From IMG/VR virus record IMGVR_UViG_3300017743_000161, positions 1-21,711 of that record: DNA of 21,711 bases; one strand, 5' to 3'. Shown piece after piece: positions 8,263 to 17,547 of this stretch. How positions within the stretch are numbered: position 1 is the first letter of the stretch; the number at the start of each line of letters is the position of its first letter. The notes beneath the pieces were generated by a model. The model saw nothing but the letters and a program-made list of their open reading frames with translations, searched no databases and was not told the DNA's origin. The translations under genes were made by a program, and so were the position numbers. This stretch comes from a virus.

Positions 8263-9080
8263 TATGAAAATATATTATTAATTCTTTGTCTAATTTGTGT
8301 CATTAAATCTTCTACTCCTCCAGCACCTGCCTGTAATGTCTCACCTGTCTTGTCAAAATATCTAAAGATAAAATCATCTTGATCAACATCGCCATCGCCA
8401 TCAGCATCTCCATCATCAGTGTAGTTAGGAGCATTATAAACATCCATAATACCATTATCTCCTCCAGAACCTGCGTTAATTGCGTTTTGACTTAATTCTG
8501 TACCACCATAAGCTCCTACATTTCCAAGTGATCTTTGTTCCATGTAATCTTTAAAACCATCTATTCCATAACCAAAAGGTTGTCCAGTTGTAGGATTTAT
8601 TTTTCCTCCAATACTATTTTTATTAAAAAAATTTATATTTGCTGGAGTTCCAAGTTTAAAAATATTTAAAAAACCAGGAAGTACTGTTTTTGGTTTATAA
8701 TCTTTTAGTTCATTTTGTAATTGTGTGTTTATTGCAAACTGAGAATTTGGTCCAACTTTAGTAAAATCTGGAGGTAGAGATAGAGTTAGTGGTTTATTTA
8801 ATGTAACAGGAACGCCTAACCCATATTGTTCTTTAACATCTAACTCTGTTACTACTGGGTCTGGTCCTGTATTAAAAGGATGGTTGTCTTCCGGGTTAGG
8901 ACCTGCTCCATCACCAGGAGCGTTATTATCTCCACCTGTAGGACCAGGGGATGAACCAGGTCCATCAAAACCACCTCCGCTACCATCATAATTACTTCTT
9001 CTATAACCTGGTCTTGATCCATCTTTAGATGGTTTAACTATGCTAAAACCTATATCTTGATTTATTTTTTTATCTATCAT
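8262..9080 (-). CDS. Gly/Pro-rich protein with dockerin/EF-hand-like calcium loop
   Basis: A 272-aa protein. Residues 17-28 read PSKDGSRPGYRR, a tag of the kind seen in several proteins of this operon. Residues 29-75 form a low-complexity Gly/Pro/Asp linker. A middle part (about 80-200) has short motifs such as PLTLSLPPDFTKVGPN. Near residues 218-240 an acidic run, DDGDADGDGDVDQDDFIF, has Asp at alternating positions followed by Gly, hydrophobic, acidic and aromatic residues, like a single dockerin or EF-hand calcium loop. The C-terminus is an amphipathic helix (VEDLMTQIRQRINNIF). A strong ribosome site (GGAGGAAG) precedes the ATG, which overlaps the 737-aa gene stop as TAATG. Probably a minor structural or tail-associated protein; calcium binding is inferred from one loop only. 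Confidence 0.78.
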   Translation of the reverse strand: MIDKKINQDIGFSIVKPSKDGSRPGYRRSNYDGSGGGFDGPGSSPGPTGGDNNAPGDGAGPNPEDNHPFNTGPDPVVTELDVKEQYGLGVPVTLNKPLTLSLPPDFTKVGPNSQFAINTQLQNELKDYKPKTVLPGFLNIFKLGTPANINFFNKNSIGGKINPTTGQPFGYGIDGFKDYMEQRSLGNVGAYGGTELSQNAINAGSGGDNGIMDVYNAPNYTDDGDADGDGDVDQDDFIFRYFDKTGETLQAGAGGVEDLMTQIRQRINNIFS

Positions 9081-11293
9081 TATCGTCTTCCTCCAGCATG
9101 TATATCTAACCTAAAAGTTCCTAATTTCCAACTAGTATCCACTGCTGTGTTAGATATTGTAAGAGCTATAGCTCTTGCTCTTGCACGTGTGTCTACTTTT
9201 GTTGTTGTAGATGATACAGTAAACGGACCTAACGATGAGCTAACTGCTGTGTCACTAGGATAATCTCTTAAATCTAATTGTATAATAGCATTTCCTTGTT
9301 GTGATATAAAGTCAGGAATAATTCTACTTACTCTCATAATGTTTTCACCATCACCTCTGAGGTCAGCCATGTTTGTAGCGGCCCCTCTTATAACTTTTTG
9401 TGTAATATCATAATCTCCAGACGTAATGTTTGCTGGAATTGCAACAGCAGCTGTTGCTGCTTCTTGTTGATTAACCCCTGTTTCATGTTCAAAGTATATT
9501 GTTATACCGTCTGTATTACCTCTTACATCAAACGATGCATCATCACCGGCATTATATTTAGTTGCATGAGGTAAACCAAATACTGCTGAGTCTTCCCAAG
9601 TTGTTCTAGGAAATAAACTATTTGCATTTGTAAACCATATAGGTCGTTTAGCAGTTGAATCTAGATAACTATATGTAACTGCTCTGTTAACATTGTTCGA
9701 TGCTGCTGTTGGATAGAACCAAGTAATCTCACCAAACAAGTTATTAATACCACAATAAACTAATTGATTAGATGAAGTATTAAGATCATCATAAACAAAA
9801 TCTTCAACCAAGCAATCCATAGATTCTAGTTTACCAGTGTATCTAAAGAAACCGTTATCAGACATCCAGTACGCAGCACCATCAACTTCAACAGCTGCAT
9901 TCTGTCCTATCAATCCACAGTTAGTACCTACCTGTTCAAAAGCAAATGTAAATGGTTGTCCAACAAAACGCATAGTAAATAAAGATGTATCAGACCAAAC
10001 ATAAATTGCATTCCTACCAAGTTTAGCTCCAATGATCCGTGATCCAGCGGCTAGTCTTTGTGTACCGGCAGTGTTTTCTGCTGTAGGTGTATAGTCATTA
10101 ATATTTTCTTGAGAAGAAAATCTTATAAACATATCATCTTGTGTTGCTTTGTTACCAATAGTTGTTTCTGTTCCAAAAAATACTAAGTGACGGTCAGGTG
10201 TAGAGACCAACATATCACGTGACGCTGTTGGTGCACCGGTTATAATAGTTGCACGTGTTGCTGTTGCATTTGTTGCATCACCATCCCACTCAAAACATTC
10301 ACCATTATGTATTAATGCTATTAATGTGCTTCCTAAATTATCCAATGCCCATAGACCAGGATCAATAACTTGGTCGGTGTTAGCTGCAGCTGAACCCCAT
10401 CCAGTAAAACCAGATGAATTAGTTACTGTTGCACCATTAGAATGAGTCGTAGCTGTAGTTCCTCTCGCTCCTCTTCCTATACCTGTAAGTTTATTTCCTG
10501 AAACACCTGTGTATGATATTTCTTCTGTGCCTATTAAGACATGGTTTGTACCTGTAGTTGGAAAACCTGTTGAATTAGTTAATGTAATTTCTGTAGCAGA
10601 ACCATTGTTTCCGCCTGACGTAGAAGAAATAGCACCATTTAAAGTATTGGTTAACGCTCCTAATAAATTACCACCCCACAATGCAATACCCCAACCAAAC
10701 GCACCAAGTTGTTCTGCTGGTCCTACATGATAGTATTGAAAAAATTTAACACTTCCAGATGTAGTGGCACCTGATCCTGTTTCATTATTATCCATTGTAA
10801 TAGTAATAGTAGTGTCACTTGGAACACTAGTTACCATATATTTTATGTCATCAAAATCTGTTGCCGTATAATTAGAATTAGTTGCAGTTGAAAAATTACT
10901 AAATAATATAATGTCTCCTGCTTTAAAACTATGTGGTGTTGGGAATGTAATTGTAACTGTGTTTGATCCATTAGTTGTAGTAAAACAATTTGATAAAGTT
11001 GTACCTGATGGATTAACTAAAGGGTGTATGTCATAATACACACCTCCAGAATAAACATATAAAATTCTGTTAGTTCCTATAACTGAAAATTTTGTAGAAT
11101 CTTTATTAACAAAATGATGCAAACCTCTTGTAGCACCTGTTAATTTATCTTGTCCTAATTGGTTCCAACCACCTATTTTCTCAGGTGTACCGTATCTAAA
11201 ACGCACGTTTTCTCCATCCGTCCACTGAGATTCAGCGCCGGTAGACGTAACTTGCTTATTAAACCCTGGTAAAAACCCTAATTTTTGTAACAT
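9080..11293 (-). CDS. P22 gp10-like stabilisation / tail-hub protein
   Basis: A 737-aa protein whose N-terminus, LGFLPGFNKQ...W.DGENVRFRYG.PEKIGGW, matches the conserved start of proteins annotated as packaged-DNA stabilisation proteins in marine phages (P22 gp10 type). In podoviruses this class closes the head-tail channel after packaging and helps form the tail hub. The body is beta-rich with many aromatic and Gly residues, as in beta-propeller-like tail proteins; GLIGQNAAVEVDGAAYWMS lies in the second half. Residues about 232-290 form an inserted module (ITLTNSTGFPTTG ... GTEEISYTG ... LTGIGRGARGTTATTH) also present in the 278-aa protein at 20786-21622. The gene is preceded by a 73-base gap with a candidate extended -10 promoter. 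Family assignment rests on remembered motifs; a T7 gp12-type tubular protein is the alternative. Confidence 0.8.
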   Translation of the reverse strand: MLQKLGFLPGFNKQVTSTGAESQWTDGENVRFRYGTPEKIGGWNQLGQDKLTGATRGLHHFVNKDSTKFSVIGTNRILYVYSGGVYYDIHPLVNPSGTTLSNCFTTTNGSNTVTITFPTPHSFKAGDIILFSNFSTATNSNYTATDFDDIKYMVTSVPSDTTITITMDNNETGSGATTSGSVKFFQYYHVGPAEQLGAFGWGIALWGGNLLGALTNTLNGAISSTSGGNNGSATEITLTNSTGFPTTGTNHVLIGTEEISYTGVSGNKLTGIGRGARGTTATTHSNGATVTNSSGFTGWGSAAANTDQVIDPGLWALDNLGSTLIALIHNGECFEWDGDATNATATRATIITGAPTASRDMLVSTPDRHLVFFGTETTIGNKATQDDMFIRFSSQENINDYTPTAENTAGTQRLAAGSRIIGAKLGRNAIYVWSDTSLFTMRFVGQPFTFAFEQVGTNCGLIGQNAAVEVDGAAYWMSDNGFFRYTGKLESMDCLVEDFVYDDLNTSSNQLVYCGINNLFGEITWFYPTAASNNVNRAVTYSYLDSTAKRPIWFTNANSLFPRTTWEDSAVFGLPHATKYNAGDDASFDVRGNTDGITIYFEHETGVNQQEAATAAVAIPANITSGDYDITQKVIRGAATNMADLRGDGENIMRVSRIIPDFISQQGNAIIQLDLRDYPSDTAVSSSLGPFTVSSTTTKVDTRARARAIALTISNTAVDTSWKLGTFRLDIHAGGRR

Positions 11294-11341: not shown

Positions 11342-11366
11342 ATGTTTTAGTAAGCTATGTACTGTA

Positions 11367-11948
11367 CTATAAAGTAGGCCATTCACCTAAAGGTCTAGAA
11401 GAAACATTGTCTGCACCTCTTGTGTAAGTAAATAAAGCTTCTATTGCTTCAATTGTAGTTGCATTATCTATCGCTGTTTCTATTTCGTTAGATTTAGTTC
11501 TAACTGCTGTTCTAAAAGTTGAAACATTTGCTGGAATTGCAGTTGCTGACTCAGCGTGTCTTACAACATACCAATCTGTAGATTGTAATAATCCTAATGC
11601 TTCAGCTTTGATTTGATTTTTTTCATTTGTTTTAACACCTGAATTAATTATTTGAACACCATCGCTATCTAATATAGCATTACCTTCTTGGTCAACTGCA
11701 TTAACATCATCAATTGTTTTACCTACTGCTGCAGCATAACTTGCTGTCACTACATCGTTAGCGAAAGTAAAACTTTCTGCGCCATTGATATAAAACCTGT
11801 TGTCTTTTAAATTTGTGCTGTCATATACTATTTCGTATATTCCGTTAGCTACAAGTTGTTCTGCACTCCAAGATGGTGCTGCATTATTAAAAGAAGCCAA
11901 GCTTGAATTAACTTTAACTATTGTGTTATTTTCTACTTTTGCGTACAT
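11367..11948 (-). CDS. Putative tail-fibre assembly / chaperone-like protein
   Basis: A 193-aa protein. It opens MYAKVENNTIVKVNSSL, the way many phage tail-fibre assembly proteins begin (short N-terminal hairpin containing -YAKIxNNxIV-). The C-terminal half, about residues 110-175, has IKAEALGLLQSTDWYVVRHAE followed by FRTAVRTKSNEIETAI, resembling the LL-x-SDW-TQ...YR-x-LR helical pattern of the XkdW/DUF4376-type chaperone domain. It lies directly after the fibre block, where such helpers normally sit. It has its own strong ribosome site (AAGGAGAAT) after a 55-base gap. Proposed role is folding or attaching the fibre proteins encoded upstream. An alternative is a small structural fibre tip with a built-in chaperone domain. 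Confidence 0.68.
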   Translation of the reverse strand: MYAKVENNTIVKVNSSLASFNNAAPSWSAEQLVANGIYEIVYDSTNLKDNRFYINGAESFTFANDVVTASYAAAVGKTIDDVNAVDQEGNAILDSDGVQIINSGVKTNEKNQIKAEALGLLQSTDWYVVRHAESATAIPANVSTFRTAVRTKSNEIETAIDNATTIEAIEALFTYTRGADNVSSRPLGEWPTL

Positions 11949-12003: not shown

Positions 12004-13083
12004 TTATCTAGCAGTTGTAGGCACAAAATTACTACCTACTAATGGATTTTCGGCAAAAGCCATGTAAATCATATCTGCTCCACTTGCATTGTGACCAGTT
12101 CCTGAACTTGTTATTTTAAAACCATTTGAAACAAAATCAAAACTATCGTAACTATCTTCTTCTCCATTTGTATTTGCAAATAATTTTTTATTAACAACAT
12201 TTGATGGATTTCTTACATCATCACATATTAACCAATCACTTGTGCCATTAATTCGTTTTACCATAACAAAAGCAGGTTTAAATCCGGTATTAACAAATGG
12301 GCCATTTGTACTTGCATTACCAGTATAAGAACCAAATTTGCTGTAACCTTGTTTTTGTGCGAAACAGTAAGCAACTAAATTACTTCCATCTAGATTGGTT
12401 CCTTCATAATCTCCTACACTAAATACAGTTGAGTTTATAGTAACACTTGAGTTACCCCAAACATTTGTATCATTAGCTTTTGCTGCTGTTGTGTTTAAAT
12501 ATACTACTCCAGGAGCTGCTTGAGATGTAAAAGAATCTTTATGATAAACAGACCAGTTCCAAGCAGCACTTCTATTTTTAACAATAATTGCATCAGGTGT
12601 AGCTGATAAATTATGAGGAATTGTATGTCCTGCTGTTCCATTACCTCCATAACCAATAATTGAAAAACCTGCTGCAGTATTTACTGAACCTGTATAACTT
12701 TTGCTAGTACCACTACCTGTAGTATTACCAGATACAGCACTACCCGCTTTCCAGTTCCAAGCAACATAGGTTTTTCCATCTTGGTTGTTTGAGTTTGCAT
12801 TTGGGCCTGCTGTATCAGCACCTAACACAAATCCATCAGCATTAGTAGATGTAACTGTATCAGTATTTGTAATTTCAGCAGAAGTTGAATTTGATATTAA
12901 TTGTTTTAACATTCCTGAAACTGAATTGTGTAATGAATGATCGTAACCTGCATCTCCTCTTTGTTTAACCCATATAAAATCTGGTTGATTTCCTACACCA
13001 GAAATTGTTTGTCCACCTGCAGTACCTGTGTAAGTAACTGTATTAAAATAATCTGATGGTTTGTCTATTGTTGAATAACTCAT
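12004..13083 (-). CDS. Tail-fibre protein of three related modules (second copy)
   Basis: A 359-aa protein made of three versions of one module of roughly 110 residues, of the type catalogued as DUF7483 in marine phage fibres. Each has a Y-TG-x-(G/N) strand, a GF-x-PDF-x-(W/V)-x-K start, an NT-x-x-E region and a DGF or NGF turn: near 1-113 (from YFNTVTYTG), 130-243 (GFSIIGYGG) and 250-350 (FGSYTGN). Each module ends in an AWNW, AYCFA or YMAFAE motif. It is a clear paralogue of the 347-aa protein at 14585-15628, with the identical run AYCFAQKQGYSKFGSY and the same C-terminal -TAR ending. Four bases separate its ATG from the preceding fibre stop, so the two are coupled. Likely part of the adhesin that touches the host surface; exact receptor unknown. 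Confidence 0.82.
   Translation of the reverse strand: MSYSTIDKPSDYFNTVTYTGTAGGQTISGVGNQPDFIWVKQRGDAGYDHSLHNSVSGMLKQLISNSTSAEITNTDTVTSTNADGFVLGADTAGPNANSNNQDGKTYVAWNWKAGSAVSGNTTGSGTSKSYTGSVNTAAGFSIIGYGGNGTAGHTIPHNLSATPDAIIVKNRSAAWNWSVYHKDSFTSQAAPGVVYLNTTAAKANDTNVWGNSSVTINSTVFSVGDYEGTNLDGSNLVAYCFAQKQGYSKFGSYTGNASTNGPFVNTGFKPAFVMVKRINGTSDWLICDDVRNPSNVVNKKLFANTNGEEDSYDSFDFVSNGFKITSSGTGHNASGADMIYMAFAENPLVGSNFVPTTAR
12325..12374. repeat. 50-base perfect direct repeat, copy 1
   Basis: This 50-base segment is identical to 14918-14967, in the paralogous gene 2593 bases away. It encodes AYCFAQKQGYSKFGSY at the join between the second and third modules. Flanking sequence diverges immediately on both sides, so identity at every codon third position across 16 codons is notable. 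Confidence 0.95.
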
Positions 13084-13087
13084 AATT

Positions 13088-14557
13088 CTATCCTATTAAA
13101 TTTAAATTTTTTGTACATAAACTATAAAAACCTTCGGGAACTGCATATTCAAAATTACCTAGTCCACTAGAATCTACGTTTCCTGATGAGATTGCGTAAG
13201 TTGGAGATCCAAAATTAAAATCAAAACTTCCTTGATTTAAACCAGCTGAGTTTATGTATTGATTATTAGTGTATAAAAGTTGACTATCTGTCGTAGTATT
13301 TATCAAAACACCATTTTTATAAAACACTACAGAACCATTTTGTGCATTAAAGGTAATACCAATAATATCATTTGTTGTAAAAGTTGCTACACCAGAAGTG
13401 TTACCCTGACCAGATAAACCTTCTCTGTAAATGTATCCAGTACTAGAATATACAATTCTACCTGCATCTACAGCACTATGAACACCACCATCTACACTTG
13501 CTAAAGTTATTCCAATAGTAGCATAAGTAGTTGCTCCAGTGCATTTTGCTTCCCAATACCATTTACCGTTTGCAAAAGCCATGTTTCCAAGAACACTGTT
13601 GTCTGTATTACCGTTTGATGCTGAAAGATTACCGTTTGATAAAGCTATATTAGAACCTTTTGATAATGCGTTTAAGTTTGCAAAATTATTTGTGCAACTA
13701 TCAATAGATTGATCTATGCTTGTTAAATTATTAACCGTGTAGTTATTTCCATTACCTGATACATCTGTTCCTAAAGCACCACTATTTTGAAAATTTAAAT
13801 AAAATCCATTGTTGCCAAATGTTAAACCTGTAACAATTTTAGGAACCCAAATTCCTGTTTGAGAATCAAATTCTCCAAATGATGACGAGTCTAATGCTTG
13901 ACCATCTGCATAAACTACTTCTGCTAGATAACCACTATAATAAGCTGATGTTCCTACTGCACCAACACTATGAACAGTACCTGAAGCAATACCAATTGGT
14001 GTTAAATCATCATTTTGAGGGGGATAACTTGCTGTAGCAAAAGAAGTTTCTCTTACACCATTAACATACATCCTTACTCTGTCTGATGCTGTGCTATCTG
14101 TTGTGTTAACCATTACTACGATATTGTACCACGCACTCGTGTCACGAAAAACCCTATTTGTTTTGACTGAAGTAGTACCACCTGAACTTGGAAATGAAAA
14201 AAATTCTAATTGATCTGATGCACCAAAACGAATCATATCTGTTTGGTATCCATCTGATGCTCTAGAAGCTGAAAATACTTCTTGAATTACACCTAATGTT
14301 GATCTTTTTAACCAAGCTGATACTGTTAATATTTTTTTTGAACTAGCTGTTGTAGAATATGTTTTTGTTAAATAATCTGAACTTGCAGTGTTAAACCTAC
14401 ATGAGTTATCAACTTGAAAATTATTTAAAACTACTGGCCATGTTCCTTGTCTTTTGTAATTTATTGCATCGGATAATTTCCATACTCCAGAAGCTGATCC
14501 GAAAGCTCCCGTGGGTATATTATTTGGTCCTATTATTCCGCCGTTTTGTTTTGACAT
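13088..14557 (-). CDS. LamG + SPRY-like tail-fibre adhesin (second copy)
   Basis: A 489-aa protein starting MSKQNGGIIGPNNIPTG. Residues about 45-235 form a LamG / concanavalin-like jelly-roll: CRFNTASSDYLTK, a VSAWLKR strand, the WYNIVVMVNT core strand, then RVRMYVNGVRETSF and a YLAEVVYADGQALD strand. Residues about 285-460 look like an SPRY-type beta sandwich: LSNGNLSAS, GKWYWEAK, TIGITLA, and DIIGITFNAQNGSVVFYKNG. Both folds are common carbohydrate- or protein-binding modules, so a receptor-binding fibre role is likely. The C-terminus (EYAVPEGFYSLCTKNL) is conserved with the 494-aa paralogue at 15628-17112. It is followed at once by the 359-aa fibre gene. A weak ribosome site (AAGG) precedes the ATG. 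Confidence 0.84.
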   Translation of the reverse strand: MSKQNGGIIGPNNIPTGAFGSASGVWKLSDAINYKRQGTWPVVLNNFQVDNSCRFNTASSDYLTKTYSTTASSKKILTVSAWLKRSTLGVIQEVFSASRASDGYQTDMIRFGASDQLEFFSFPSSGGTTSVKTNRVFRDTSAWYNIVVMVNTTDSTASDRVRMYVNGVRETSFATASYPPQNDDLTPIGIASGTVHSVGAVGTSAYYSGYLAEVVYADGQALDSSSFGEFDSQTGIWVPKIVTGLTFGNNGFYLNFQNSGALGTDVSGNGNNYTVNNLTSIDQSIDSCTNNFANLNALSKGSNIALSNGNLSASNGNTDNSVLGNMAFANGKWYWEAKCTGATTYATIGITLASVDGGVHSAVDAGRIVYSSTGYIYREGLSGQGNTSGVATFTTNDIIGITFNAQNGSVVFYKNGVLINTTTDSQLLYTNNQYINSAGLNQGSFDFNFGSPTYAISSGNVDSSGLGNFEYAVPEGFYSLCTKNLNLIG

Positions 14558-14584
14558 AATTTTTTATACCTTATTTCCCATAAT

Positions 14585-15628
14585 TTATCTAGCCGTAACA
14601 GGGGTTCCCGTACTTGATGTAAATGGAAATTCTGCAAACGCCATGTAGATGTAGTTTCCACTCGAAGCATTATAAGAAGAATTGTCTGATCTTAATTTCA
14701 TGCCATTAGATAATAAATCTATATTTAAAGACGATGATGTGGTTTCTGCACCATTTGTATTTGCATAAAGTGAAGCGTCATTACCATAAGTTGCATTAAA
14801 ATCTCTTTTTGTATCATTAATTCCCCAATTTCCTGTGCCACCTGTTTTTTTAACCATAACAAAAGCTGGAGCAAATCCTGTATAAACAAATACACCATCA
14901 GAAGAACCATTACCAAGATAAGAACCAAATTTGCTGTAACCTTGTTTTTGTGCGAAACAGTAAGCAATCATTGTTCCTGAAGAGTTTGTGTCTCCATTAG
15001 TTCCTACTGTAAAAAGTGTTGATGAAGGAGTAGTGTCATTCCAGTATGTAGTGCTAGTGTCAAATGCTTGAGTATCATTTAAAGCCATAACGCCTGTGTT
15101 ACCTAAAGACGAATGATACACACCCCAATATCGTCCAGAGTTAGTTCTTGCTTTTGTAATTATAACATTTGGTGCAACTCCTAATCCATGTCCGATTGTG
15201 GCACCAGCACTTCCTGTACCTGTATAAGACACAATACTAAATCCTGCTGTTGTGTTTACTGAAACTGTAGAATTTATAGAACCTGCTGTATTAGATGAAC
15301 CTGTACCATTTGCTAACCAGTTCCATGCTGCAAATGTAGCACTATTATCATTAACATTTCCATTAGAACCTACTGCAAATCCATCAGCATCAAAACTTGT
15401 AACCCCGGTAGCATCTGTAACTTCTATATCATTAGTATTTGCGTGCAAATGTTTAGTAGAACCTCTTACGGCATCTTGGTTCATATGGTTTCCTGTAGCA
15501 CTTCTTTTTTTTATCCAAGAATAATCTGGTTGAAATCCAACTCCAGTGATAGATTGTGTAGAACCATTACCTGTATATAATACTGTATTAAAATAAGTTT
15601 CTCCCTTATTGATAGTTGTATAAGCCAT
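14585..15628 (-). CDS. Tail-fibre protein of three related modules (first copy)
   Basis: A 347-aa protein composed of three versions of the DUF7483-type module, near residues 1-107, 125-235 and 240-340. Recognisable elements are YFNTVLYTGNG / GFSIVSYTGTG / FGSYLGNG at the starts, GFQPDYSWIKKR and GFAPAFVMVKK in the strands, and AAWNW / AYCFA / YMAFAEFPF at the ends. It has the same architecture as the 359-aa protein at 12004-13083, sharing AYCFAQKQGYSKFGSY and the -TAR C-terminus, but the second module differs substantially. Its ATG overlaps the stop of the 494-aa fibre gene (TAATG), with a GGAG ribosome site inside that gene. Probably assembles with that protein on the tail fibre; the partnership is inferred from coupling and from the cassette being duplicated as a pair. 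Confidence 0.82.
   Translation of the reverse strand: MAYTTINKGETYFNTVLYTGNGSTQSITGVGFQPDYSWIKKRSATGNHMNQDAVRGSTKHLHANTNDIEVTDATGVTSFDADGFAVGSNGNVNDNSATFAAWNWLANGTGSSNTAGSINSTVSVNTTAGFSIVSYTGTGSAGATIGHGLGVAPNVIITKARTNSGRYWGVYHSSLGNTGVMALNDTQAFDTSTTYWNDTTPSSTLFTVGTNGDTNSSGTMIAYCFAQKQGYSKFGSYLGNGSSDGVFVYTGFAPAFVMVKKTGGTGNWGINDTKRDFNATYGNDASLYANTNGAETTSSSLNIDLLSNGMKLRSDNSSYNASSGNYIYMAFAEFPFTSSTGTPVTAR
14918..14967. repeat. 50-base perfect direct repeat, copy 2
   Basis: Identical to 12325-12374. It lies at the same position in the paralogous fibre gene, at the boundary between module two and module three. Perfect identity in otherwise diverged genes could come from recent gene conversion or serve as a recombination site. 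Confidence 0.95.
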
Positions 15629-17112
15629 TATCCGAACTCCGCTAGGTTTTTTGTGTTTAAAGAATAATATCCACTAGGTACTGCATACTCAAAGTTTCCA
15701 TAGCCATTACCATCTGTATTACCTGATGAGATTGCGTAAGGTGGAGAGCCAAAGTTCCAATTAGATTTACTTCCATTATATTCGTGTGTTGCTATCATAT
15801 TAATATTACCAGAAGTTAAATTTAAAACTGAACCTGTGCCTGTAGCACCACTTGTAGGGTCGCCACTATTATACCAAGTTCCATTATTACCTATATAAAA
15901 TTTTCCATTAACTGCATCTAAAGCATACATAATTATATTATCATTAGCAGGTGCAGTTATAGATATATTTCCATCACTTGAAACTAAAGTTGACAAACCC
16001 TTTTGAATATAAGCATTTAGTTGAAATGCTCCACCACTTGCACCATTCATAGTTCCTTGATTTACTGTTTCCCAATCTTTAAAAATTCCTGCTTTAGGAT
16101 AATCAACATGAGAACCTGTTATTTTCATTTCCCAATACCATTTACCAGAAAAAGCAATAGGTAGTGTAACTGTTGACATTCCACTATCTGTTGCAGTATT
16201 TCCTGTTGACACTAAATTACCCTCTGAAAGAGTTGTCTTTGAACCATTACTTAAAGGATTTAATGTTGCATAATTAACTACAGGATAGTCAGTTGATTGA
16301 TCTACTGATGTTAAACTATTAACTGTAAAGTCATTGTCGTTACCCGATGAATCTTCCCCTAACGCTGCAGCATTTTCAAACTGCAAATTAAATCCATTAG
16401 TGCCAAAGGTTCCTGTATAAGGAATTGGGGTCCAAACTCCATCAGAGTTTGAAACTCCGAATGATGTTTGATCAAGAGCTGTTCCATCGATATATACAAA
16501 TTCTGCTAAATAACCACTTAAGAAATTATTACTTGTATCATAAGTTCCCACATAAATATTTGTATTAATTGTAAGATCTTGGTTTTGACTAGGATATGTT
16601 GCTGTACTAAATGATGTTTCTTGAACTCCATTAATATACATTTTAAATCTATCTGCCTCTGTGCCTTGTGTTGTATCAACTGCTAAAACTATATGATACC
16701 AAGCAGAAGCATCTCTAAAAACTCTATTTGTAGTAAAGTTCATCTTATCTACTCCACTTACTGCTGCATAAGCAATAAAGGTATTGTCGGTTAAAAAAGC
16801 AATAGAAATTCTACTACTAGAATCTTGATAAAAACTAATTGGAAATTGATTGTCTCCAGTTGCTAAAGATCCTCTTTTAATCCAAAAACTTATTGTAAAT
16901 GTTTTTGTATTTCCAGATGTCGAAGATGTCGAAGCTTTATTCAGGTAAGTATTTGTTTCAAACCTAGCAGAGTTAGTTGTGAATAATGCTCTTTGAGGCC
17001 AAGTGCCATTTACTTTTGCTTCGTATTGTTCTTCTTGTTGCCAAACTCCAGAAGCTACTGTGCTTGTTGGATCGTTTACAACACCAATAATTCCACCGTT
17101 GTCGCTAGACAT
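15628..17112 (-). CDS. LamG + SPRY-like tail-fibre adhesin (first copy)
   Basis: A 494-aa protein starting MSSDNGGIIGVVNDPTST. Residues about 45-245 form a LamG-like domain: ARFETNTYLNKAS, FTISFWIKRGS, WYHIVLAVDT, RFKMYINGVQETSF and YLAEFVYIDGTALD. Residues about 285-470 form a SPRY-like sandwich: TLSEGNLVSTGN, GKWYWEMKITGS, NIIMYALDAVNGKFYIGNNGTW and SNWNFGSPPYAISSG. The C-terminus reads EYAVPSGYYSLNTKNL. The N- and C-termini, the domain order and many core strands match the 489-aa protein at 13088-14557, while exposed loops differ, as expected if the two copies recognise different ligands. A good ribosome site (AAAGGAGAATC) follows a 39-base gap. Most likely receptor-binding fibre; the ligand is unknown. 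Confidence 0.84.
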   Translation of the reverse strand: MSSDNGGIIGVVNDPTSTVASGVWQQEEQYEAKVNGTWPQRALFTTNSARFETNTYLNKASTSSTSGNTKTFTISFWIKRGSLATGDNQFPISFYQDSSSRISIAFLTDNTFIAYAAVSGVDKMNFTTNRVFRDASAWYHIVLAVDTTQGTEADRFKMYINGVQETSFSTATYPSQNQDLTINTNIYVGTYDTSNNFLSGYLAEFVYIDGTALDQTSFGVSNSDGVWTPIPYTGTFGTNGFNLQFENAAALGEDSSGNDNDFTVNSLTSVDQSTDYPVVNYATLNPLSNGSKTTLSEGNLVSTGNTATDSGMSTVTLPIAFSGKWYWEMKITGSHVDYPKAGIFKDWETVNQGTMNGASGGAFQLNAYIQKGLSTLVSSDGNISITAPANDNIIMYALDAVNGKFYIGNNGTWYNSGDPTSGATGTGSVLNLTSGNINMIATHEYNGSKSNWNFGSPPYAISSGNTDGNGYGNFEYAVPSGYYSLNTKNLAEFG

Positions 17113-17151: not shown

Positions 17152-17547
17152 CTATGCGTCGTCTAATACTTCGTATGAAATAAATAAATCTAAATCAGAC
17201 GCTGCACTAGCTCCACCTTTAAGGATGTCACCTTCCATCAAATAAATTGGTGTGTCTGAAATTACTAACGTTGCGTCAGCAGGTACTGAAACTGTTTTTG
17301 CTAGATAAACTGTTGCACTAGCTCCTGTTGGTGTGATTCCAGTTGCACCAGCAGTTGTTAAACCATCTACAAATAATGAAACGTCTGCTGCACTTGTTCC
17401 ATCTACATTAGCACATGTGATTCTATTAATTTTTACAATTTTTTCTGCAGCAACAGTCATTAAAGTTGTTGTTGCTGTAGCTGATAAATTCCAACCAAGG
17501 TTACCACCTAAGATATTTGTTACTGCTACTATATTTGGATTTGCCAT
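17152..17547 (-). CDS. Small beta-rich structural protein, 131 aa
   Basis: A 131-aa protein with many Ala, Thr and Val and short alternating hydrophobic strands: IVAVTNILGG, TTLMTVAAEKIVKINRITCAN, ADVSLFVDG, ATVYLAKTVSVPA, ATLVISDTPIYLMEGDIL, LDLFISYEVLDD. The last two elements (P-I-Y-L-M-E-G-D and ISYEV) are seen in many small proteins of marine phage structural operons. The 111-aa protein at 7763-8098 has the same layout. Such a small jelly-roll could be a head-decoration or fibre-attachment component; its position just before the fibre cassette favours the latter. A modest AGGAAA ribosome site precedes the ATG. Confidence 0.78.
   Translation of the reverse strand: MANPNIVAVTNILGGNLGWNLSATATTTLMTVAAEKIVKINRITCANVDGTSAADVSLFVDGLTTAGATGITPTGASATVYLAKTVSVPADATLVISDTPIYLMEGDILKGGASAASDLDLFISYEVLDDA

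Follow-up and report, generated by a model that had tools for sequence, protein, structure and literature searches.

The DNA studied here is IMG/VR virus record IMGVR_UViG_3300017743_000161 in its entire length of 21,711 bp (the window); it represents only a fragment of a marine phage genome, and its long open reading frames (ORFs) form a single minus-strand run of virion genes. Four of these ORFs follow each other in the order A1-B1-A2-B2 and encode proteins of 494, 347, 489, and 359 amino acids (aa); the A proteins combine a LamG with a SPRY domain, and the B proteins belong to the DUF7483 family. Our analysis indicates that this A-B-A-B arrangement is a standing two-slot architecture with ancient copies, and that independent, domain-by-domain exchange into two old slots replaces the duplication of a whole gene pair that an initial annotation of this DNA had proposed. 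The homology of the two pairs, their architecture, the slot specificity of an N-terminal tag in the A proteins, the mosaicism of the locus, and the similarity of modules across slots were observed directly. We regard it as likely that the locus provides two anchored adhesin slots whose contents are renewed through between-phage recombination at conserved linkers.

The first slot consists of A1 (15628..17112) and B1 (14585..15628), the second of A2 (13088..14557) and B2 (12004..13083), all on the minus strand. Direct repeats connect the copies: the longest three in the region (155, 123, and 115 nucleotides [nt]; 73-79% identical) recur at an almost constant distance of 2540-2593 nt. ORFs, alignments, and these repeats together confirm the position of the locus and the order noted in the initial annotation, a LamG/SPRY protein followed by a triple-module protein, twice in a row. 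A1 and A2 are 47.5% identical in a global alignment of 472 columns, and both match phrog_27411 (E ≤1.4e-90, with 1.4e-90 for A1). A2 is recognized by the Pfam profiles Laminin_G_3 (PF13385; E = 3.4e-10, residues 61-214, 40.7 bits versus a cut-off of 27.6) and SPRY (PF00622; E = 1.1e-8, residues 332-423, 35.6 bits versus a cut-off of 26.3), while A1 stays below the thresholds of both. An AlphaFold2 model of A1 (mean predicted local distance difference test score [pLDDT] 74.8; N-terminus disordered or of low confidence at residues 1-26 and 31-43) matched laminin/neurexin LG domains and the B30.2/SPRY structures of TRIM, Ash2L, and RanBP proteins in the PDB. LamG membership is accordingly established by profile for A2 and by structure only for A1, whose SPRY domain was likewise identified by structure (TRIM67, TMt 0.80). 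A1 can be subdivided into a slot-1 N-terminal tag (residues 1-46), LamG (~47-245), a linker (246-300), SPRY (~301-452), and a conserved C-tail (453-494); A2 begins with a slot-2 tag. B1 and B2, 50.0% identical over 342 columns, match DUF7483 (PF24299) over its full length, with 403.6 bits for B1 (E = 8.3e-121, model positions 3-330 of 330) and 353.2 bits for B2 (E = 1.8e-105, positions 1-330 of 330) against a cut-off of 27. Each is built from three tandem repeats of ~110 aa (in B1, N ~10-121, M 122-229, and C 230-347), which bears out the earlier triple-module reading.

To place this arrangement among other phages, double loci were collected by scans with A1, A2, B1, B2, the F gene, and Q193; L-numbers (L003, L008, L040, and so on) label the other phage loci or contigs compared with the window. 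The A-B-A-B order recurs in 25 further contigs, seven of them complete from the conserved gene E131 (17152..17547, minus strand), the upstream boundary of the island, to W737 (9080..11293, minus strand), the downstream boundary, a conserved virion protein that matches phrog_3287 (virion structural protein, E = 3.4e-93). E131 followed by A-B-A-B was found in L161, L231, L240, L244, L249, L251, and L255. Slot 2 is followed in nearly all double loci by Q193 (11367..11948, minus strand; 193 aa), which is 90% identical at the aa level in both L008 and L040 and whose residues 103-151 match phrog_4912 ("tail fiber assembly") weakly (E = 9e-7); the next gene is W737. Double pairs are also present in the cultured phages HTVC103P and HTVC104P, and in HTVC200P with one B gene inverted, and fused A-B-A-B proteins are encoded by Roseobacter phage CRP-406 and phage C72C1. 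The search for single-cassette relatives that the initial annotation had recommended was fruitful, single A-B pairs being common in pelagiphages.

Across the double loci, only the N-terminal ~46 residues of the A proteins are strongly slot-specific. Residues 1-46 are 63.9% identical within slots versus 42.1% between slots (p = 0.001), and the SPRY domain carries no slot signal (29.2% versus 28.7%; p = 0.22). The A proteins of single-pair loci with Q193 upstream possess a third type of N-terminus. The A proteins hence pair a slot-specific N-terminal tag with exchangeable distal domains, the pattern of a conserved N-terminal attachment part with variable distal parts. The common N-termini, C-termini, and domain order ascribed earlier to the 494/489-aa pair hold for the domain order, for the C-tail, which at 74% identity is the best-shared part, and for the N-terminal motif NGGIIG...ASGVW...TWP; the N-terminus itself, 46% identical between A1 and A2, is the most slot-specific part and not the best-shared one.

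The age of the copies was assessed from codon usage and phylogeny. Where A1 and A2 have the same residue, their codons match in 56% of cases versus 51% expected at saturation (z = 1.5); their synonymous codons are saturated. B1 and B2 share 64% of codons versus 52% expected, a small excess that is strongest at residues 220-270 (z = 3.3), where limited conversion between the slots is possible. In trees of the B proteins, B1 groups with L003 and B2 with L008 and L040, and a sister relationship of B1 and B2 is rejected (approximately unbiased [AU] test, p = 0.00035). The closest relative of B1 is that of L003 (70% aa identity); those of B2 are the slot-2 proteins of L008 (75%) and L040 (66%); and those of A2 are found in L008 (77%) and L040 (75%). 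A1 is 88% identical to its L040 counterpart over the 295 residues available, and its LamG domain is 82% identical to that of A2 from L008. All four genes consequently have a closer partner elsewhere than in the window, the very finding that the initial annotation had named as speaking against a duplication. Copies stemming from a recent tandem duplication should be each other's closest relatives, and these are not; the codon saturation of A1/A2 and the tree test of B1/B2 led us to reject such a recent event. A duplication of the A-B pair within the recent ancestry of this phage, with rapid divergence afterwards under two-receptor selection, would agree with the repeated gene order, the ~50% identity, the constant spacing, and the slight B1/B2 codon excess, but it is highly improbable given these same two results, the closer partners elsewhere, and the identical order with a conserved slot tag in 25 other contigs. 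Since the homology of the two pairs is real, a pair duplication must have occurred somewhere in the family's past; that part of the earlier proposal stands, and what falls is its assignment to this phage alone.

Set against its closest relatives, the locus has a mosaic structure in which blocks of 93-100% DNA identity alternate with blocks of 45-65% at module boundaries. Against L040, blocks of 95-97% alternate with blocks of 50-67%: the SPRY half of A1 is 95% identical, B1 63%, the N-tag and LamG of A2 95%, the SPRY domain of A2 50%, the C-tail of A2 together with B2-N 97%, the rest of B2 50-65%, and Q193 plus W737 96%. The breaks fall at the ends of B1, in the LamG/SPRY linker of A2, before its C-tail, and between the N and M modules of B2. 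Against L008 the pattern of A2 is reversed, with 44-64% in LamG and 98% DNA identity from SPRY through B2-N. The LamG domain of A1 and the slot-2 LamG of L008 are 88% identical in DNA, and where their residues agree, 94% of the codons do too. The M module of B1 is 98% identical to that of L003 over 284 nt, in a phage whose backbone is distant from the window (39% protein identity for W737 and 37% for F228). Among the double loci we counted 32 module pairs with at least 80% aa identity, which are not counts of independent exchange events; 24 of the 32 lack an adjacent module at that level, and four are cross-slot. These comparisons indicate that LamG, SPRY, and each of the three B repeats are exchanged on their own, and sometimes between slots.

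Several of the sharp breakpoints lie in conserved junction blocks, all given here on the minus strand. Block D2, the LamG/SPRY linker, lies at 16289..16411 in slot 1 (73% identical to 13701-13823; breakpoint 16323) and at 13701..13823 in slot 2 (breakpoints 13795 against L040 and 13731 against L008). Block D3, at the SPRY/C-tail transition, lies at 15647..15761 in A1 (73% identical to 13107-13221; breakpoint 15685) and at 13107..13221 in A2 (breakpoint 13199). Block D1, the M/C junction of the B proteins, lies at 14813..14967 in B1 (79% identical to 12220-12374; breakpoint 14960) and at 12220..12374 in B2 (breakpoint 12306). Seven of the 15 sharp breakpoints fall inside these three blocks, which make up 15% of the region (p = 0.004, only a rough guide because breakpoints are not fully independent). 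The variation is of the whole-module replacement type, as compared with the adenine-specific changes in one variable region made by diversity-generating retroelements, and no reverse transcriptase was found with Pfam or PHROGs among the genes of the window, a genome fragment of 21,711 bp.

The domain mosaic also bears on the possibility that two whole A-B pairs were acquired independently from different phages and came to lie side by side by chance. Closer relatives elsewhere for each gene and the abundance of single A-B loci in other phages would be in line with such a history; we nevertheless consider it quite unlikely, as the unit exchanged is usually a domain and not a pair, with a domain mosaic seen in every close comparison, and as distinct slot N-tags are conserved throughout the lineage, so that the double order was inherited and not assembled afresh.

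The majority of the loci come from metagenomic contigs, and the conserved blocks that hold the breakpoints are also where mis-joins are likeliest; the mosaic might thus reflect reads of different phages joined at conserved linkers during assembly. The 3545-bp contig L160 contains an exact 984-nt direct terminal repeat holding the SPRY half of an A gene and the N module of a B gene; it represents either a block that is the same in both slots of one genome, which would point to recent conversion, or a loop made in assembly, which would suit an artefact. However, the same domain exchange is present in complete genomes of cultured pelagiphages, which speaks against an artefact of assembly: HTVC031P and Skadi-4 are 94% identical in LamG and 31% in SPRY, Greip and HTVC011P 53% in LamG and 88% in SPRY, and this decoupling appears as sharp steps in DNA identity. 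It is also seen in many different contigs, and cultured HTVC103P and HTVC104P carry the double order as well. After this check against isolates we judged an assembly chimera unlikely, indeed very much so.

Exchange extends to the entire island. In the backbone relative L072, identity to the window is 79-97% as far as ~17,150 and resumes at 11,347 (73-86%); between these matches, A-B-A-B gives way to a 2OG-Fe(II) oxygenase, two Gly_rich_2 proteins, and further genes. Alternative content of this kind, 2OG-Fe(II) oxygenase genes together with genes for two Gly_rich_2 proteins whose N-termini bear the NGGIIG motif, occupies the same site in L072 (3705-9395) and in similar islands of L073-L142. Although unrelated to the A proteins, the Gly_rich_2 proteins of backbone relatives thus begin with the same N-terminal motif; an NGGIIG-type start is found in 78 non-A ORFs, and many islands hold two, with different residues following it. 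Since the motif is common to unrelated proteins of the island, these data support, without proving, a role as a putative virion-docking tag.

We propose that the locus would encode two virion adhesin slots in series, each formed by a LamG-SPRY protein A and its partner B of three repeated, beta-rich modules, with Q193 adjoining. The slot-specific N-terminal tag of A probably docks on the virion. Both slots are old and common to a lineage of pelagiphage-like podoviruses, and between-phage recombination, most likely homologous and during co-infection, would renew their contents. At the conserved linkers, crossovers would swap units ranging from single domains (LamG, SPRY, B-N, B-M, and B-C) to complete genes or the entire island; most swaps would stay inside one slot and some would link the two, the tag remaining with its slot. 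Tentatively, and with slightly less than even confidence, we extend this to a combinatorial adhesin system in which two virion sockets with distinct N-tags could accept any mix of LamG, SPRY, and three B repeats, or unrelated Gly-rich adhesins; the linkers would serve as recombination seams, a community-wide module pool would span phage families, and transfer between a phage's own slots would be an extra source.

From the folds and the hypervariability we infer that A and B are receptor-binding proteins of the virion, and the two slots may correspond to two receptors, the dual specificity suggested in the initial annotation. The tail-protein context of A and B comes from their neighborhood (tail genes and the assembly-like Q193) and from PHROG labels. 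A model of B1 is confident (pLDDT 89.8), and a PDB search with it yielded no convincing structural relative; the top match, the beta-rich domain of Toxoplasma gondii PLP1, reached E = 6e-4 but a template modeling (TM) score of 0.22 at a root mean square deviation of 13.8, and is not interpretable. This lack of a relative for B, the derivation of receptor binding from sequence and folds, and the placement of related proteins under head and packaging by phrog_19943 would suit pairs that serve as structural or enzymatic components of the virion and take no part in receptor choice, with a variability that stems from drift or escape from another pressure. Such an alternative is unlikely in view of the LamG and SPRY binding folds, the tail fiber label given to B-like proteins by phrog_24898, and the position of the pair in Skadi-1. 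The hypervariable region of that phage (13,646-15,713) was interpreted as arms-race associated (PMC10504331), and since our A and B matches (14417-15724 and 13356-14408) overlap it, this region is the A-B pair.

Several points weigh against the reading of two anchored slots with exchangeable contents. LamG, linker, C-tail, and B modules retain a small slot signal of 1-6 points, so that exchange between slots must be rarer than within them. Most comparisons involve metagenomic contigs, and the breakpoint statistic takes linked breakpoints as independent. Virion location and cell binding of A and B are deduced, and the role of the tag is argued from analogy and from its sharing among unrelated island proteins.

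Further observations concern individual loci. L242 carries a single A-B pair flanked by Q193 on each side and is a possible intermediate between single-pair and double-pair layouts. In HTVC200P (L202, MH598801.1; 4405-9276) the order is A, inverted B, A, B, with one DUF7483 gene antisense within the fiber operon; both B genes have their leader and start within a 58-nt inverted repeat (95%), and a 157-nt stretch of the two A copies is 97% identical, so that an inversion or a switch is possible. HTVC202P (L207, 2015-3491) has its A gene split near the LamG/SPRY linker into overlapping ORFs of 254 and ~250 aa, either through a frameshift or as a true split. B proteins of ~460-495 aa with an apparent fourth ~110-aa module occur in L156, L231, L244, L248, L249, L251, L252, L255, and L256; the repeat number itself appears to vary across loci. 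The DUF7483 protein of Greip EXVC021P (L215, gp2) was deposited as a "SprT-like protease", probably a misannotation.

HTVC027P has homologues of TubA, g145, F228, and W737 in the same order, and some of these genes also have homologues in HTVC023P and 023Pt_psg01; W737 shows 43-45% aa identity, with 44-45% in HTVC023P and HTVC027P. Judged from these genes, the window is best read as part of a podovirus distantly related to HTVC023P-type pelagiphages, and its host is likely to be SAR11. Phages of SAR11 rank among the commonest marine viruses, and their host-recognition islands are highly variable. If modules are indeed exchanged in tagged slots, specificity could be assigned to individual modules, metagenomes might reveal host range, and the hypervariable region of the skadi group would gain a mechanism; the locus could let a virus renew its host recognition piece by piece.

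Several known systems resemble this locus in part. The same domains in the same order are found in fused A-B and A-B-A-B virion proteins (phrog_19943, CRP-406, and C72C1), where they form one polypeptide instead of four separate genes. Phages K1-5 and CBA120 carry several fibers on adaptors. Branched LtfA/LtfB fibers have been described for the T5-like phage DT57C (PMC4728585). These three phages likewise possess more than one recognition protein per virion and a conserved N-terminal attachment, but their different enzymes or fibers are experimentally proven, whereas the two homologous pairs described here are known from sequence. Polarivirus skadi and HTVC010P-like pelagiphages (PMC10504331) share the same proteins and the same variability, but with one pair instead of two; there the variability was recognized only through read recruitment, and neither slot tags nor exchange at the level of domains is described. 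In the metaviromic islands of marine phages (PMC3909814) and the host recognition cluster of pelagimyophages (PMC7029224), host-recognition genes also form the hypervariable part of related genomes; those reports describe whole islands or fiber C-termini, while the unit here is a single module in a two-slot locus. Ongoing, recent domain exchange between receptor-binding proteins of different phages has been reported as well (PMC10684548), without a LamG/SPRY or tandem example; the present locus adds two tagged slots and cross-slot transfer. Our literature searches returned no mention of DUF7483 and nothing on tandem fiber genes with N-terminal anchors. While metaviromic islands and the shuffling of receptor-binding domains are known already, a two-slot locus with slot-specific tags, exchange resolved to single ~110-aa repeats, and modules shared between slots appear to be new.

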